From the NCBI GenBank assembly GCA_026393855.1, contig JAPKZJ010000087.1, positions 1-64,000 on the forward strand: a DNA stretch of 64,000 bases, written 5' to 3'. Positions 13,084-19,237 of this stretch are shown piece after piece. The first letter of the stretch is position 1; the number at the start of each line of letters is the position of its first letter. The stretch comes from Candidatus Aminicenantes bacterium (lineage in GTDB: Bacteria > Acidobacteriota > Aminicenantia > Aminicenantales > UBA4085). The translations under genes were made by a program, and so were the position numbers. The notes beneath the pieces are model-generated. The model was not told the origin of the DNA. It saw only the letters and a list, made by a program, of their open reading frames with translations, and ran no database searches.

Positions 13084-14166
13084 TCAGACGGCGAAGCGGA
13101 AATTGATGATGTCCCCGTCGCGGACGGGGTAATCCTTGCCTTCCAAGCGCAAAGTCCCATCAGACTTGCAGTCCTGGAGGTTGCCCTTGGCGGCAAAATC
13201 CTCGTAGCCGACGACCTCGGCCCGGATGAATCCCCGCTCGATGTCGGAATGGATGACGCCGGCAGCCCGGGCAGCCGGAGTGCCGGACCGGATCGTCCAA
13301 GCCTTGACCTCGTCGCCGCCGACCGTGAAAAACGAAACCAGCCCCATCAGCGCGTAGGCCGTGGCGATAAGCTTGGCCCGGGCCGGGCGCTCGATCCCGA
13401 AGTCCTGGAGAAAGCGTCGGGCGTCCTCCTCGGGCAGCTGGCGGATCTCCATCTCCAGCCGGGCCGAGAGGGCGATGACGGCGGAATTCAAGCCTTCCAG
13501 CCAGGGCTTGAAGGGGCGGAGCGCTTCGGCTTCCGTTGAGATGTCCGCTTCGTCCAGGTTCAGGGCCACGATGAAGGGCTTTTGGGTCAGGAACCGGTAG
13601 CCCCGCAGGAGAAGCTCCTCGTCGGCCGTCAGGTCCGCCCGCCGTAGCGGCGTCTCGGACTCCAGAAAGGCCCGGCACCGCTCCAGGGCGGCCTTCTCCC
13701 GGACGTCGCGGTCGGACTTCTTGGCCGCGATCTGCTTGACCAGCTTCTCCAGACGGCTCTCAATGACGCCGAGGTCGGCCAACAGGAGCTCCGCCTCGAT
13801 ATGGCGCAGGTCGCGGAGGGGATCGATAGACTCGAGGGGATGGGCCACCGCGGGATCGCGGAAGCCGCGAACCGCGGCCAGCAGAGCGTCGGCGGCCCGG
13901 AGCTTGCCCAAGGCCTGCTCAGCGAAGCCCGTCCGTCCGGGCTCGCCCGAAGTCAGGCCGGCCGTCTCGCTGAATTCGATGGCGGCGAAAGTCTTTTTCT
14001 TCGGCTTATAAACGGAGGTCAGATTTTCGACCCGGAGATCGGGGACTTTGACGACGGCTACGGGCTCCGTCCCCTTGGCGGCGGCCTCCCCGGTGCCAAG
14101 CCCGGTCAGGGCGCTGAAAAGCGAGGACTTCCCGGATTGGGGCAGTCCGATCAGGCAAATCTTCAC
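13084..14166 (-). CDS. ychF: divergent YchF/Obg-family ATPase
   Basis: A 360-residue P-loop protein with the YchF layout: G domain, coiled-coil insert and C-terminal TGS domain ending GKDYPVRDGDIINFRFAV. YchF proteins are ribosome-associated ATPases. Several usually fixed motifs are altered: the P-loop is GLPQSGKSS rather than GLPNVGKST, the switch motif is ETAGLTSGE rather than DIAGLVKGA, the TIEPN segment is absent, and the base-recognition motif is NLDE rather than NVNE. It may be a second, specialised paralog; whether a canonical copy exists elsewhere cannot be seen. Confidence 0.85.
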   Translation of the reverse strand: MKICLIGLPQSGKSSLFSALTGLGTGEAAAKGTEPVAVVKVPDLRVENLTSVYKPKKKTFAAIEFSETAGLTSGEPGRTGFAEQALGKLRAADALLAAVRGFRDPAVAHPLESIDPLRDLRHIEAELLLADLGVIESRLEKLVKQIAAKKSDRDVREKAALERCRAFLESETPLRRADLTADEELLLRGYRFLTQKPFIVALNLDEADISTEAEALRPFKPWLEGLNSAVIALSARLEMEIRQLPEEDARRFLQDFGIERPARAKLIATAYALMGLVSFFTVGGDEVKAWTIRSGTPAARAAGVIHSDIERGFIRAEVVGYEDFAAKGNLQDCKSDGTLRLEGKDYPVRDGDIINFRFAV

Positions 14167-14309: not shown

Positions 14310-15512
14310 ATGTCACATCCCCTCCCCGTTCTCGCCGCCAGCGTCATTCGCCATCCCGCCATCCTGCGGGCCCGCCCCTCCGTCAATCGATTTCTGCTCC
14401 GCTATATGATGAAGTTTCGGCCGCGACGGGTCGGCGGGCATGTCATTCTTCATTCCCATCTCCCCCCGCTCAACAGCCGGGCCTACGGCCGCTTCGTGCG
14501 CGAGCATCTGCTGGGCGGTAGCCGGGGGCCTTCCCACGCCCAGATCGGACTGACCGATGCCTGCCCCCAGCACTGCGCCTACTGCTACAACAAGGGCCGT
14601 CAAGGCGTGGCCATGGACGCAGCAACCCTCCGGCGGACGATCTCCGACTTGAAGGCTCTCGGCGTCTTCTGGCTCGGGCTGACCGGCGGCGAGCCGTTGC
14701 TCAACCGCGAGATCGTGGATCTGACAGCCGTGGCATCCCCGGACTGCGCCGTCAAGCTGTTCACGACCGGGATGGGGCTGACCCCAGCCCTGGCCGACGA
14801 CCTCCGGCGCGCCGGGCTCTTCTCGGTCTCGGTCAGTTTGGACCATGGGACGGCCGAAAAGCACGACGCCATCCGGGGATATCCGGGTGCCTTCAACGCG
14901 GCCATGCGGGCCATCGGAATGTTCAAGGAGGCCGGCCTTCATACCGGAGTCTCGGCCGTCCTTTCGACCGGGATGATCCGAAGCGACGGCGTCGAGCCGT
15001 TTCTGGAATTCCTGAACGGCCTGGGCCTCGACGAGGCCTGGTTGAGCGAGATGAAGCCATCGCTCCAAGGCCCGTCCGATCCGGCCGCCATCGCCACCGC
15101 CGAGGAACGCCGAAGCCTGATCCGTCTACAGGATCGCTGGAACCGGTCGGCCCGAATGACCGTCAACTACCTGGGACATTTCGAAGCCGGCGCCCATTTC
15201 GGCTGCAACGCCGGGACGAAGATGATCTATGTCGACGCCTTCGGCGAGGTCAGCCCCTGTGTCTTCGCACCGCTTTCGTTCGGCAACGTCCGCCAGACGC
15301 CTCTCGCCGCGATCTGGGACGACATGCGCTCGTCGTTCGCCCCCGGCGAAGATTGCTTCATGCTCCGCAACCAGGGCCTGTTGCGGAGCCGGGCCGGAGC
15401 CGGCCTGCCGATCGCGCCCTCAGCCTCGCGGGAGCTGGTCAAGGAAATCCATCCCGAGGCCCCGGGGCGATTCGTCGGGCTTCTCGATCGAAGCCGAAGG
15501 AGTTCCACATGA
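14310..15512 (+). CDS. radical SAM protein with C-terminal auxiliary-cluster cysteines
   Basis: A 400-residue radical S-adenosylmethionine enzyme. The cluster motif CxxxCxxC is C85-C89-C92 (DACPQHCAYCY), and GGEPLLNRE near 130 is the SAM-binding GGE motif. A SPASM-like tail carries C299 (GCNAG), C317 (SPCVF) and C349 (EDCFM), which could bind an auxiliary Fe-S cluster. The first 70 residues are a family-specific extension with no motif. It is the first gene of a four-gene operon whose members overlap by four bases each. The substrate is unknown; a peptide or small-molecule modification is possible. Confidence 0.85.
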   Translation: MSHPLPVLAASVIRHPAILRARPSVNRFLLRYMMKFRPRRVGGHVILHSHLPPLNSRAYGRFVREHLLGGSRGPSHAQIGLTDACPQHCAYCYNKGRQGVAMDAATLRRTISDLKALGVFWLGLTGGEPLLNREIVDLTAVASPDCAVKLFTTGMGLTPALADDLRRAGLFSVSVSLDHGTAEKHDAIRGYPGAFNAAMRAIGMFKEAGLHTGVSAVLSTGMIRSDGVEPFLEFLNGLGLDEAWLSEMKPSLQGPSDPAAIATAEERRSLIRLQDRWNRSARMTVNYLGHFEAGAHFGCNAGTKMIYVDAFGEVSPCVFAPLSFGNVRQTPLAAIWDDMRSSFAPGEDCFMLRNQGLLRSRAGAGLPIAPSASRELVKEIHPEAPGRFVGLLDRSRRSST

Positions 15513-15931
15513 GTCCCAAGATGATTCGAGCGGCCGGAATCGCTTGCGGTCTGACTTTTGCCGGAGTCGGGACGATCTTCCTCTTCAGCCCGGACGCCGT
15601 CTTGCGGCTCATGAATTCGCTCGGCCGTTCGTTCGGACTGCCCGAAGCGCCGCTCGCAGGCGCCGGGTTCTACCTCGCCCTGGCCGTCGGCTATATGGCC
15701 GTCGTGACCATCCTGTCCTTCATGATGGTTCGGCAGCCCGGGAATCCGGCCTATGCCCTTCTCCTGAGCCAAGCCAAGGGCGCGTCCAGCCTGCTTTCGA
15801 TCGGGCTGTTTTTCTTCCATCAGAGAGCCTTCGTCTACCTGGCCAACGGCATCGTGGACGGAGCCCTCGGGCTGTTCGCCTTCCTGATCTACCGATCGGT
15901 CCGGAAAAGCCCCGCCGCCGCGAGATCATGA
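15509..15931 (+). CDS. small four-helix membrane protein
   Basis: A 140-residue protein with four hydrophobic segments (about residues 7-27, 48-72, 82-98, 103-124) and basic ends. The ATG overlaps the radical SAM stop (ATGA) and AAGGAG lies 6 bases before it. I do not recognise a family. In this operon it could anchor the oxidoreductase at the membrane or pass electrons to quinone, by analogy with small hydrophobic partners of other dehydrogenases (inference). Confidence 0.75.
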   Translation: MSPKMIRAAGIACGLTFAGVGTIFLFSPDAVLRLMNSLGRSFGLPEAPLAGAGFYLALAVGYMAVVTILSFMMVRQPGNPAYALLLSQAKGASSLLSIGLFFFHQRAFVYLANGIVDGALGLFAFLIYRSVRKSPAAARS

Positions 15932-16476
15932 GCCTGCGCCTGCGGCTCGCCGCGCTGTGGCTCCCGCGCGTCGTCCGCGAGAGGTTTTTTCTCGAGCTGG
16001 CCGAGCGGACAGCCAGGGCTTTCGAATCGTCCGCGCCGAACTTGAGTGGTCTTTCCGGCGAACCCGCTCGGCTCGCCTTCGCCCGCTTCACCCAGGAGAA
16101 GGCGGCCGGCCTCCAGGCCGACCCGCCGGCCCGGGCTCGGGCCGAAGCAAGGCTGCGGGAGGAATCCGTCTCGTTCGGCCGGCGGCTTGGGTCCGTCCTC
16201 GGCGTCCGAACCCGGGCCGACGTCCTGCGGGCGGCCCGCCTTCTCTATCGCTCGATCCGGATCGATTTCGCAGCCTCCGCGTCAGGCGGGATTCGCATGA
16301 CGGCCTGTTCGTTCGCCGAGACCTATTCGCCGGCGACCTGTCGGACGATCGCCGCCCTGGATGAGGGCCTCCTCGTCGGCTTGGCCGGCGGGGGGCGGCT
16401 GGCCTTCACGTCCAGACTGACCGAGGGAGCCGAGGCCTGCCGAGCCCAATTCGATTTTCCGGAGTCGCTCCCTTGA
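15928..16476 (+). CDS. ATC-hydrolase-like (PF14196-type) protein
   Basis: A 182-residue cytoplasmic protein. Its last 65 residues follow the pattern of the L-2-amino-thiazoline-4-carboxylate hydrolase-like family: MTACSFAETYSPATCR, then LDEGLLVGL, LAFTSRLTEGAEAC and FDFP, with paired cysteines at matching positions. The N-terminal half is helical, with an FFLELAERTARAF segment. Members of this family are often linked to metabolism of sulfur or lipid intermediates but most have no proven reaction. It overlaps both neighbours by four bases (ATGA before, TTGA after), so it is co-translated with them. Confidence 0.65.
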   Translation: MSLRLRLAALWLPRVVRERFFLELAERTARAFESSAPNLSGLSGEPARLAFARFTQEKAAGLQADPPARARAEARLREESVSFGRRLGSVLGVRTRADVLRAARLLYRSIRIDFAASASGGIRMTACSFAETYSPATCRTIAALDEGLLVGLAGGGRLAFTSRLTEGAEACRAQFDFPESLP

Positions 16477-17753
16477 AGACCGCTATCGTCGTCGGGAGCG
16501 GGGCCGGAGGGGCCGCGGCCGCCCGCGAGCTTCAGGGCCGCTTTAACGTCACGATCCTCGAAGCCGGGCCCGAATTCCGGCCGTTCGGCTGGAGCCTTCG
16601 AATCCCCACGGCCGCCAAGCGGGCTCGGCTGCTCTTCGACGTCCGGGAGATCTCGCTTCTCTTTCCGGCCATGAAGATCGATCGGGCCGGGGACGGGATG
16701 ATCCACGTCCGAGGCATCGGGACGGGCGGAACGACGACATTGGCGACGGGCAACGGCCTTCGCTTGGACCACGACCTCAAGGCCTTGGGGATCGATCTGG
16801 GCCCGGAGTTCGATGACCTCGGACGGGAGGTGCCGATCACGACGGATCACCGCCGGCTCTGGCGGCGGACGACGCGGGAACTTTTCGCCGCCGCCGAAGC
16901 CATGGGCCTGGATCCCCGTCCGACGCCGAAAATGGGCCGCCATGAGCACTGCCGCAATTGCGGCCGCTGCGTCCTGGGCTGTCCGTACGGCGTCAAATGG
17001 GACAGCCGCGAATTCCTGAAGGATGCGCTGGCCAAAGGCGCGAAGCTGGAAACCGGCGCCCATGTCGAGCGTCTCGAGATGCGGGGGGGCGAAGCGGCCG
17101 GAGTCCGGGTTCGCAGGGGCCTCCGGAGCCGATTCATGCCCGCGGATGTCACGGTCCTGGCGGCGGGGGGGTTGGGAACCCCGGTCATCCTCGCCGCGTC
17201 CGGATTCCCGGGCGAACCCCGGCTTTTCGTCGACCCGGTCCTCTGCGTCGCAGCCCGCCGTCCGGGGGCGGGCCAGAACGCGGAGCTTCCGATGCCGTTC
17301 TATGCCCAGCGAGACGGCTATATGATCTCGCCCTATTTCGATCATCTCAGCTATTTTTTCAACCGGCGCTGGACCGCACCGGCCGGGGATATCCTGAGTC
17401 TGATGATCAAGCTGGCCGATCAAGGCCGGGGCTCAATCGAAAGACGGCGCCTGCGCAAAACGCTGACCCCGGAGGACCGGGCCAAGTTGGCGGAGGCGAC
17501 AGGGCTTTGCGAGGAGCTATTCGGTCGTTTGGGCATCCCCAAGAACCGCTTGTTCCTCGGCACCCTCAACGCCGGGCATCCCGGAGGGATGTATCCGCTC
17601 ACCCGGGCCGAAGCCAAAACATTCCATCACGATCGCCTGCCGGGCAACGTCTTCCTCGTCGACGCCTCACTCTTGCCCGCCGCGCTCGGCCGCCCCCCCA
17701 TCCTGACCATCCTGGCCCTGGCCAAAGCGGTAGCCCGTAAGATTCCTTCGTAA
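16473..17753 (+). CDS. GMC-family FAD oxidoreductase with ferredoxin-like cysteine motif
   Basis: A 426-residue flavoprotein starting at TTG, overlapping the previous stop (TTGA). The FAD dinucleotide fold VVGSGAGGAAAA is at 6-17, GTGGTTTL near 83 matches the first GMC signature, and the C-terminal LVDASLLPAALGRPPILTI matches the GMC end. C160, C163, C166 and C170 form C-x2-C-x2-C-x3-CP, the spacing of a [4Fe-4S] ferredoxin site, within GRHEHCRNCGRCVLGCPYG. The enzyme is shorter than secreted GMC oxidases and has no signal peptide. It probably oxidises an alcohol or a ring carbon made or modified by the upstream enzymes. Confidence 0.85.
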   Translation: MKTAIVVGSGAGGAAAARELQGRFNVTILEAGPEFRPFGWSLRIPTAAKRARLLFDVREISLLFPAMKIDRAGDGMIHVRGIGTGGTTTLATGNGLRLDHDLKALGIDLGPEFDDLGREVPITTDHRRLWRRTTRELFAAAEAMGLDPRPTPKMGRHEHCRNCGRCVLGCPYGVKWDSREFLKDALAKGAKLETGAHVERLEMRGGEAAGVRVRRGLRSRFMPADVTVLAAGGLGTPVILAASGFPGEPRLFVDPVLCVAARRPGAGQNAELPMPFYAQRDGYMISPYFDHLSYFFNRRWTAPAGDILSLMIKLADQGRGSIERRRLRKTLTPEDRAKLAEATGLCEELFGRLGIPKNRLFLGTLNAGHPGGMYPLTRAEAKTFHHDRLPGNVFLVDASLLPAALGRPPILTILALAKAVARKIPS

Positions 17754-17818: not shown

Positions 17819-19237
17819 TTAAACCCGCGGCTTCGGGATCTGTTCGACAAAAACGATCCGGAACTCGGTGCCGCCGTCCCGGATCAATTCAAGAGTCCCG
17901 TCCAACTGTCCGACCAGGAGATTGACGAGCTGTAAGCCCATCGATTCCGCCGCCCGATAATCAAGGCCGGCGGGGAATCCGGCGCCGTCGTCCCGGACCG
18001 CCAGAAGCAGCCGGCCGTCCTGCAGGCGTTGAAATTTGATCATGACCTCGCCGACCCGCCCATCGGGGAAGCCATGCTTGATGGAGTTGGAGACGAGCTC
18101 GTTGACGATCAGCCCGCAGGGAATGGCATTGTTGATGTCCAGGAGGATCGCCTCCGTCTCCCGCCGCAGACTGATGCGGCGCAAATCGACGGCCAGGAAT
18201 TGGAACAAGTGGACGGCCAGGCTCTCAATGTAGTCGGCGAAATCGATCCGCGACAAGTCGCCCGATCGATAGAGCTTTTCATGGACGATGGACATCGTCC
18301 GGATCCGGCTTTGGCTCTCCTTGAGGAGCTCGGCCTGGATCGGGTCCTTGAGGCTCCGGGCCTGCAGGTTGAGCAGGCTGACCATGATCTGCATGTTGTT
18401 TTTGACCCGGTGATGGACCTCCCGCAGGAGGATCTCCTTCTCCCGCAGGGAGGCTTGGACGAGCGCTTCGGCCTTCTTGCGCGGGCTGACATCGGCCATG
18501 ATATGGACGGCGCCGGTCAAGACGCCGCTCTCATCCAGGATCGGATCGACCGCCACATACATCCAGCGGCCTTGTTCGAAGACTTCGGCCTCCTCGTGGC
18601 TCTTCGAGGCCAGCATTCTCTGGAACGGGCAGTCGGGTAAGAAGCTTTCCAGGCCATGGACCATCCGGTGGCATTTTTCCCCAATGATCTCGGCTTCGGG
18701 CTTGTTCAGAAACCGCTGATGGGCCTTGTTGCATTGGAGCATTCGCCCGTCGGCGTCGAGCAGGCAGATGGCGTCGGTGATGGCGTCGAAAGTCGATTTC
18801 CAGCGGAGGGCGGACTCGTGCAGGTCCTCGTCGGCCCGCCTCTTCTCCCGACGGTTCCGAGCTTCCGCCATCTCCCGCCGGATGGAGGGGGCCAGCCGAC
18901 CCGGCTTGTCCTTCATGATGTAATCGACGGCGCCCGCCCGCATGGCCTCGATGGCGATGTCCTCGCCGATAGTCCCCGAGACGAGAATCACGGGGATATC
19001 CAGGCCCGTCTCTTTGATCAAGGCCAAGGCTGCGGTGCCGCTGAAATGGGGCAGAGCATAGTCCGCCAGAACGATGTCCCAGGCCCGCTGCCGCAAAGCG
19101 TTCCGCAGCCCCCCGGCCTCTTCCACCCGAATCCAATCCGGGTCCAAGCCATCCGCCTTCAGCTTGCGGATGATGAGGACGGCGTCGTCCTCGGAATCCT
19201 CGACCAGTAGAATTCGGACTGAATCGGACAAAGTCAA
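17819..19237 (-). CDS. receiver-PAS-HisKA_2 hybrid sensor kinase
   Basis: A 472-residue soluble protein: an N-terminal receiver domain with phospho-acceptor D59, a PAS domain (about 142-255) containing cysteines C190 and C203, and a HisKA_2 kinase with the phospho-histidine region EVHHRVKNNMQ near 275 and NELVSNSIKHGF and DDGAGF ATP-binding motifs. The ORF opens with TTG at 19237 overlapping the upstream stop; a second TTG two codons on has better spacing to AAGAAGG. Third gene of a kinase-receiver-kinase operon, so phosphate may pass along the three proteins. Its kinase half closely resembles that of the protein at 46066. Confidence 0.9.
   Translation of the reverse strand: MTLSDSVRILLVEDSEDDAVLIIRKLKADGLDPDWIRVEEAGGLRNALRQRAWDIVLADYALPHFSGTAALALIKETGLDIPVILVSGTIGEDIAIEAMRAGAVDYIMKDKPGRLAPSIRREMAEARNRREKRRADEDLHESALRWKSTFDAITDAICLLDADGRMLQCNKAHQRFLNKPEAEIIGEKCHRMVHGLESFLPDCPFQRMLASKSHEEAEVFEQGRWMYVAVDPILDESGVLTGAVHIMADVSPRKKAEALVQASLREKEILLREVHHRVKNNMQIMVSLLNLQARSLKDPIQAELLKESQSRIRTMSIVHEKLYRSGDLSRIDFADYIESLAVHLFQFLAVDLRRISLRRETEAILLDINNAIPCGLIVNELVSNSIKHGFPDGRVGEVMIKFQRLQDGRLLLAVRDDGAGFPAGLDYRAAESMGLQLVNLLVGQLDGTLELIRDGGTEFRIVFVEQIPKPRV

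Follow-up and report, generated by a model that had tools for sequence, protein, structure and literature searches.

The A-B-C-D locus

The present analysis concerns a cassette of four genes, here designated A, B, C and D, which lies on the plus strand between positions 14310 and 17753 of a 64,000-nucleotide stretch of DNA (the window) from a Candidatus Aminicenantes bacterium (assembly GCA_026393855.1, contig JAPKZJ010000087.1, positions 1 to 64,000). Gene A (14310..15512) encodes a radical S-adenosylmethionine (SAM) enzyme of 400 residues with a C-terminal one-cluster (twitch-type) SPASM-family domain; gene B (15509..15931) a four-helix membrane protein of 140 residues; gene C (15928..16476) a 182-residue protein of the ATC_hydrolase family (PF14196), with a predicted TRAPPC3/Bet3-V4R-like fold; and gene D (16473..17753) a GMC-family flavoenzyme of 426 residues, whose TTG start at 16473 is supported by the observation that its homologues start at the same residue.

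The original prediction, made from the letters of the window, held that the four genes overlap by exactly four bases and are made as a unit. Open reading frames (ORFs) and junctions were both confirmed, the 4-nucleotide overlaps being ATGA (15509-15512) between A and B, ATGA (15928-15931) between B and C and TTGA (16473-16476) between C and D. The neighbours on both sides are encoded on the minus strand, one divergent and preceding A (13084-14166), the other convergent and following D (17819-19237); since these opposite-strand genes bound the run at 14166 and 17819, it consists of exactly four genes and forms a closed unit. The commonest spacing among homologous loci is -4 at every junction (11/39 for A-B, 20/39 for B-C and 37/79 for C-D) and, because the homologues also retain the gene order, the overlaps of the window are more than chance. 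Scans for promoters and terminators gave no signal above that of shuffled sequences.

Properties of the four proteins

The original prediction had described A as a radical SAM enzyme with auxiliary-cluster cysteines, B as a small membrane protein with four transmembrane segments and D as a GMC oxidoreductase with an Fe-S motif; profiles, alignments and structural models agree with all three descriptions, while that of C as ATC-hydrolase-like stands in part.

Protein A matches both PF04055 (E 2.5e-19, 70.5 bits, cut-off 29.5) and the SPASM family PF13186 (E 6e-8, 33.3 bits, cut-off 21.5), and shares 46-56% identity with its homologues in a 29-row alignment. In these 29 homologues the CxxxCxxC motif of the radical SAM cluster (C85, C89 and C92; 14562..14585, plus strand) is invariant, as are the cysteines of the auxiliary cluster, C299, C317 (within Gx4C) and C349 (15204..15356, plus strand), and an N-terminal HSHLPPLNS segment is strongly conserved. 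The full seven-cysteine SPASM pattern is absent, no other auxiliary cysteine being conserved in the same alignment; the auxiliary site is therefore assigned to the twitch type rather than to a full SPASM. None of the NCBIfam equivalogs comes near its cut-off with A, the best being AhbD (98.5 bits of the required 500), followed by TIGR04053 and NirJ2; the MftC model scores 71.2 bits against a cut-off of 265.

Protein D matches the N-terminal GMC/FAD domain PF00732 (E 1.3e-19, 71.4 bits, cut-off 23), while the C-terminal GMC domain PF05199 stays below its cut-off (13.8 bits, E 0.086; cut-off 24.6). The FAD-binding GSGAGG motif (residues 8-13; 16494..16511, plus strand) is conserved at G8 and G13 in 81/81 homologues and at G10 and A11 in 80/81. 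A CxxCxxCxxxCP motif of the [4Fe-4S] type (C160, C163, C166 and C170; 16950..16982, plus strand) is present in all 81 and sits in the region that aligns to residues 205-298 of FAD-glucose dehydrogenase. Equally invariant (81/81) is H369 of an HPGG motif (17577..17579, plus strand), which, from the C-terminal signature of GMC enzymes, we take to be the candidate catalytic histidine. Among curated models MftG is the best match (44.9 bits, cut-off 400), and the choline dehydrogenase and cholesterol oxidase models are likewise matched weakly. A distant relative of D (E 7e-81) occurs without C in a Bacillota genome (L129:2492-3781), where it adjoins a gene for a PAP2-like phosphatase.

The hydrolase-family assignment of C holds only at the level of the family, PF14196 being matched in a profile search by 23 of 51 homologues at E <= 0.1 (best 4e-6); the copy of the window has no Pfam match. 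The AlphaFold model of C (predicted local distance difference test, pLDDT, 96) has as its top Foldseek match the palmitoylated, palmitate-bound TRAPPC3 of Naegleria (6aq3, E 7e-4, template-modelling score 0.57), and also matches Bet3, V4R and H-NOX folds; the relatedness of V4R and Bet3 has already been published (PMC2253512). A sequence search of the PDB with C found no relative, TRAPPC3 appearing at E 0.16 only. Three cysteines (C127, C138 and C171, with D145 between them; 16306..16440, plus strand) are invariant in 80/80 homologues. The predicted fold is as suggestive of a subunit that binds a ligand or a partner role as it is of a hydrolase.

Protein B has no match in Pfam or NCBIfam. Its AlphaFold model is a bundle of four long helices (pLDDT 94), for which neither Foldseek nor a sequence search of the PDB gave a convincing match; residues F17, V20, F24, F54, Y62, M63, V66, P77, K90, N113 and D117 are invariant in a 35-row alignment. 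A genome of the window's phylum carries an operon (L117:5505-7937) in which a distant B relative is followed by a Gluconate_2-dh3-like protein and then by a 551-residue GMC enzyme with a cysteine cluster of its own, that is, the B-C-D order with a different small subunit; this shared order supports the view that B is an oxidoreductase-associated membrane protein. Elsewhere a single ORF (L116:7312-8925) fuses a distant B-like four-transmembrane domain to a DUF362 domain, and one B homologue (L015:560-901) is seemingly split over two frames, by a frameshift or a sequencing error.

Distribution and conservation of the cassette

When GTDB genomes were scanned with D, 158 relatives were returned, 80 of which were kept for the comparison of loci. 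The complete A-B-C-D arrangement (type 1) is found in the same order at 39 of these loci, in many phyla and mostly in anaerobic lineages, and again in five further genomes drawn in phylum samples (G586, G611, G660, G735 and G209), so that the four families, which the original prediction had proposed to search for together, do travel as neighbours. Cassette carriers, both cultured and uncultured, belong to Aminicenantes, KSB1, Spirochaetes, Bacteroidota, Bacillota (including rumen Lachnospiraceae), Coriobacteria and Chloroflexi.

In the samples of relatives and of three phyla the cassette is rare. C occurs in 5 of 59 genomes when the genome of the window is taken with its 58 nearest sampled relatives; A, B and C stand together and in the same order in four of these relatives (G013, G018, G027 and G050), three of which also have D, the contig of the fourth ending first. 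Across 297 genomes of the window's phylum C is found in four, and B is found with C in those four and otherwise as two distant relatives only. In the phylum sample of Formimonas D occurs in 6/398 genomes, one of them holding a lone, more distant D, and in that of L040 in 1/301, which is the query genome itself. Every pair among the four genes shows correlated divergence (Spearman 0.51-0.78, above each of 500 permutations). By this comparison of genomes, A-B-C-D is a real, conserved cassette that is transmitted as a unit between phyla; its distribution is patchy and it is horizontally moved.

A fifth conserved gene, which the original prediction had left to be checked, does not emerge for type 1 either from clustering of the ORFs of at least 50 residues around the 80 loci or from inspection of the flanks of 28 loci, which show nothing beyond a scatter of CrtI-like FAD genes and of TetR-like genes, and TonB-receptor-like genes local to single clades. 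The CrtI-like oxidoreductase genes lie near three type 1 cassettes (L039:3959-5494, L041:4214-5770 and L094:9459-10988) and are not general; in two Bacillota genomes (L125 and L126) genes resembling methyltetrahydrofolate/corrinoid methyltransferases lie about 5-6 kb from type 1 cassettes. An apparent fusion of A and C (L081:6586-8001) was rejected as an internal deletion, A ending at model position 307, B being lost and C resuming from 26, which points to an assembly error or decay.

The presence of a radical SAM enzyme beside a GMC enzyme calls to mind mycofactocin, a known pairing of the two superfamilies (PMC11778925), and raises the question of whether the cassette could be a system of the same sort, either of ribosomally synthesized and post-translationally modified peptides or of a redox cofactor, in which A would introduce the modification into a ribosomal peptide and D, like MftG, would serve as the dedicated dehydrogenase for recycling the cofactor. 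MftG is the top curated match of D and MftC is matched by A, but both scores are far under their cut-offs, and a search of all frames of at least 18 residues within 600 bp on each side of the type 1 loci found clade-local matches only and no conserved precursor peptide. The sole gene with a PqqD domain in the window's genome lies on another contig, and in half of the cases the C-D core lacks a neighbouring radical SAM enzyme of the A family (see below). Identity with the mycofactocin system itself was rejected, given the scores far below the equivalog cut-offs and the lack of a precursor or MftB beside the cassette, and we regard even a related peptide or cofactor system as improbable.

The C-D core and its alternative upstream modules

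At 39 further loci (type 2) A and B are replaced by a single gene, F, in an F-C-D arrangement. F, which lies directly upstream of C in 35/39 of its loci, is a fusion of NAD_binding_4 and AMP-binding domains (thioester reductase and adenylation); its closest relatives in the PDB are carboxylic acid reductase (5mso, E 7e-67) and thioester reductase domains, and it also matches models of fatty-acid-CoA ligases. Its domains point to a putative reduction of a carboxylate to an aldehyde or alcohol. A further gene, P, CsaB-like (89 bits, cut-off 213) and with no relative in a sequence search of the PDB, is present in 20/28 of the type 2 loci with room for it, usually preceding F-C-D; in L044 and L047 the order is C-D-P-F.

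The two modules exclude each other: no locus holds both and F is never found together with B. A profile search for B in the genomes of type 2 or unassigned loci found it absent from 39/39, a set that held no positive genome, the same model finding B in the window's genome and in five others. Conversely, the complete F fusion is absent from 35 type 1 genomes, where separate ligases and reductases occur, and no full fusion of the F type was found in the genome of the window. C and D, by contrast with the modules, are near-constant partners (C occurs at 80 loci and D at 81; the two loci where D lacks C are at contig ends), and the three cysteines of C are invariant across both cassette types. In a Spirochaetes genome C and D are fused in one ORF (L068:4590-6485), a single case; that they can be one polypeptide supports a physical complex of the two.

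The phylogeny of D does not follow the type of cassette: type 2 sequences of Chloroflexota are interspersed with type 1 lineages, and L044 and L047, also of type 2, are nested beside type 1 L042. A single split of the tree into type 1 and type 2 is rejected (log-likelihood difference 143, approximately unbiased test p 4.9e-6), at least 5 changes being necessary, and it follows that the upstream modules have been swapped repeatedly on one core. The D of the window is nearest to a sequence of Hyd24-12/Fermentibacterota (64% identity, support 100/98) and not to those of other Aminicenantes, as fits a horizontal transfer of its cassette. On the evidence of gene order and phylogeny, the invariant core is C+D only, A+B and F (often with P) being interchangeable upstream modules. 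The original view of a pathway defined by the four families together thus survives insofar as A-B-C-D is one conserved unit, and gives way insofar as the core is C+D alone, with A+B as one of two modules.

The occurrence of C+D without A+B could also be taken to mean that A+B and C+D are two unrelated pairs, neighbours by chance and without a joint pathway. The order kept at 39 type 1 loci over many phyla, the overlapping starts, the correlated divergence and the near-confinement of B to genomes with C in the 297-genome sample make this a very improbable explanation.

Slightly less improbable, though still to be doubted strongly, is a modification of tetrapyrroles of the haem or chlorin type, with A acting like AhbD or NirJ, C as a V4R-type tetrapyrrole binder and D as a flavin oxidase. 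The best NCBIfam scores of A are indeed those of AhbD, TIGR04053 and NirJ2, and the fold of C matches H-NOX and a V4R protein; every score is, however, far under its cut-off, and it is hard to see what F and P would do in such a route. The rumen Lachnospiraceae, which include many carriers of the C-D core, are moreover not known, to our knowledge, for tetrapyrrole synthesis.

Proposed function

The reading that we favour, to which a probability of about 0.4 can be given, is that the cassette is an anaerobic alcohol/aldehyde redox module whose substrate is hydrophobic and probably an acyl compound or a lipid. Several independent hints lie behind it: F resembles carboxylic acid reductases and fatty-acid-CoA ligases, the predicted fold of C is one with pockets for lipids or small ligands, D belongs to a superfamily of alcohol dehydrogenases and weakly matches, among others, the choline dehydrogenase and cholesterol oxidase models, and B is a membrane protein with a distant relative beside a GMC enzyme in L117. 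The cassette thus probably builds or modifies a lipid-like molecule. The same hints favour the part of the original hypothesis which spoke of a small-molecule or lipid-linked route; its terminal oxidation stays conjectural, as D could run in either redox direction.

Since C+D is common to both types of cassette, it most likely defines the reaction, the upstream genes supplying or processing the substrate. The core would interconvert alcohol and carbonyl on the hydrophobic, probably acyl or lipid, molecule: C would hold or present the substrate, in D, H369 would be the base for a hydride transfer at the flavin, and the [4Fe-4S] cluster would exchange electrons with a ferredoxin-like partner. 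Each upstream module would make or consume the same functional group by its own route, F by activating a carboxylate and reducing it to the aldehyde or alcohol, A by radical chemistry on a C-H bond or a carbinol, carried out at the membrane with B as a possible anchor for the substrate or the enzyme. Carbinol dehydrogenases such as BtrN belong to the twitch radical SAM enzymes, which is why A could, hypothetically, generate the same functional group as F.

Several observations weigh against this interpretation. No gene adjacent to the cassette, among the clustered ORFs and the flanks inspected, names a lipid substrate; enzymes like F act on non-lipid acids too, and GMC enzymes on sugars, sterols, choline and peptide cofactors; the TRAPPC3 match of C concerns a predicted structure at a moderate score, in a list whose other folds bind haem and phenols; and D and F cannot simply share a substrate if D oxidises a fatty alcohol, because F would then run in the opposite direction.

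A more elaborate proposal, possible yet somewhat less likely than the redox module as such, is an undescribed anaerobic pathway to a modified lipid or a long-chain aldehyde or alcohol, in which a new flavin/[4Fe-4S] GMC enzyme works with a lipid-presenting C of the TRAPPC3/V4R fold, and A+B would have evolved to replace, without homology to it, a carboxylic acid reductase driven by ATP. Alternatively, the unit might be catabolic or detoxifying: B-C-D would then oxidise some alcohol from the environment as a GMC dehydrogenase linked to the membrane, with A or F responsible for the step before or after. In its favour, electron-transfer enzymes that consist of a GMC dehydrogenase and a small partner are known, the L117 operon unites a four-transmembrane protein, a Gluconate_2-dh3 protein and a GMC enzyme, the distribution is patchy, with horizontal movement, and TetR-like genes adjoin some cassettes; on the other hand, neither ORF clustering nor the flanks inspected revealed a conserved transporter or downstream catabolic gene, and the reduction of an acid by F would consume ATP, as expected of a biosynthetic direction. 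A catabolic role is, in our estimate, unlikely, though less so than a peptide, cofactor or tetrapyrrole system.

The repeated swapping of non-homologous modules on one core amounts to a natural experiment, since a product common to both types of cassette would tell the function of the core; once found, that product would provide a function for a conserved GMC family, and together with it for a radical SAM family without a name and for a branch of PF14196.

Comparison with known systems

The original prediction knew of no named pathway of this composition, and none was found in the literature searched: no paper pairs a radical SAM enzyme with the ATC hydrolase name, none combines a GMC oxidoreductase, a radical SAM enzyme and ether lipids, and searches for radical SAM with GMC gave mycofactocin papers or off-topic matches only. 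The cassette is therefore undescribed in that literature, though built from known superfamilies.

With mycofactocin (the radical SAM enzyme MftC and the GMC dehydrogenase MftG) it shares the superfamilies and their presence in one cluster, but it has no adjacent precursor peptide or PqqD/MftB, and its D carries a [4Fe-4S]-type motif and has C as partner. A resembles twitch or SPASM enzymes of the AhbD/NirJ/MoaA/BtrN type in its CxxxCxxC core and three auxiliary cysteines with Gx4C, and differs from them in its top score (98.5 against a cut-off of 500 bits), its own HSHLPPLNS N-terminus and its own context. Type 2 cassettes share, through F, the pair of reductase and acyl ligase with ElbD of the aerobic ether-lipid cluster of Myxococcus, which joins FAR, ACS, ACP and acyltransferase in one protein (PMC9131029); in F, however, the ACP and acyltransferase domains are missing, the elb cluster has no described counterpart of the GMC/C core, and the window has no F. 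C is linked to the PF14196 ATC hydrolases by the profile matches of its homologues and to the V4R/TRAPPC3 fold by its predicted structure, but is set apart by its three invariant cysteines and its steady flavoenzyme neighbour, "hydrolase" being a family name only. Finally, D has in common with the FAD-dependent glucose, fructose and gluconate dehydrogenases and with the long-chain alcohol and cholesterol oxidases the FAD motif, the N-terminal GMC domain and the HPGG-type C-terminal signature, and its cysteine cluster falls within the stretch alignable to glucose dehydrogenase; unlike them, it is only some 430 residues long with a C-terminal GMC domain that barely scores, carries a ferredoxin-type CxxCxxCxxxCP motif and has, in place of Gluconate_2-dh3, the unrelated small partner C.

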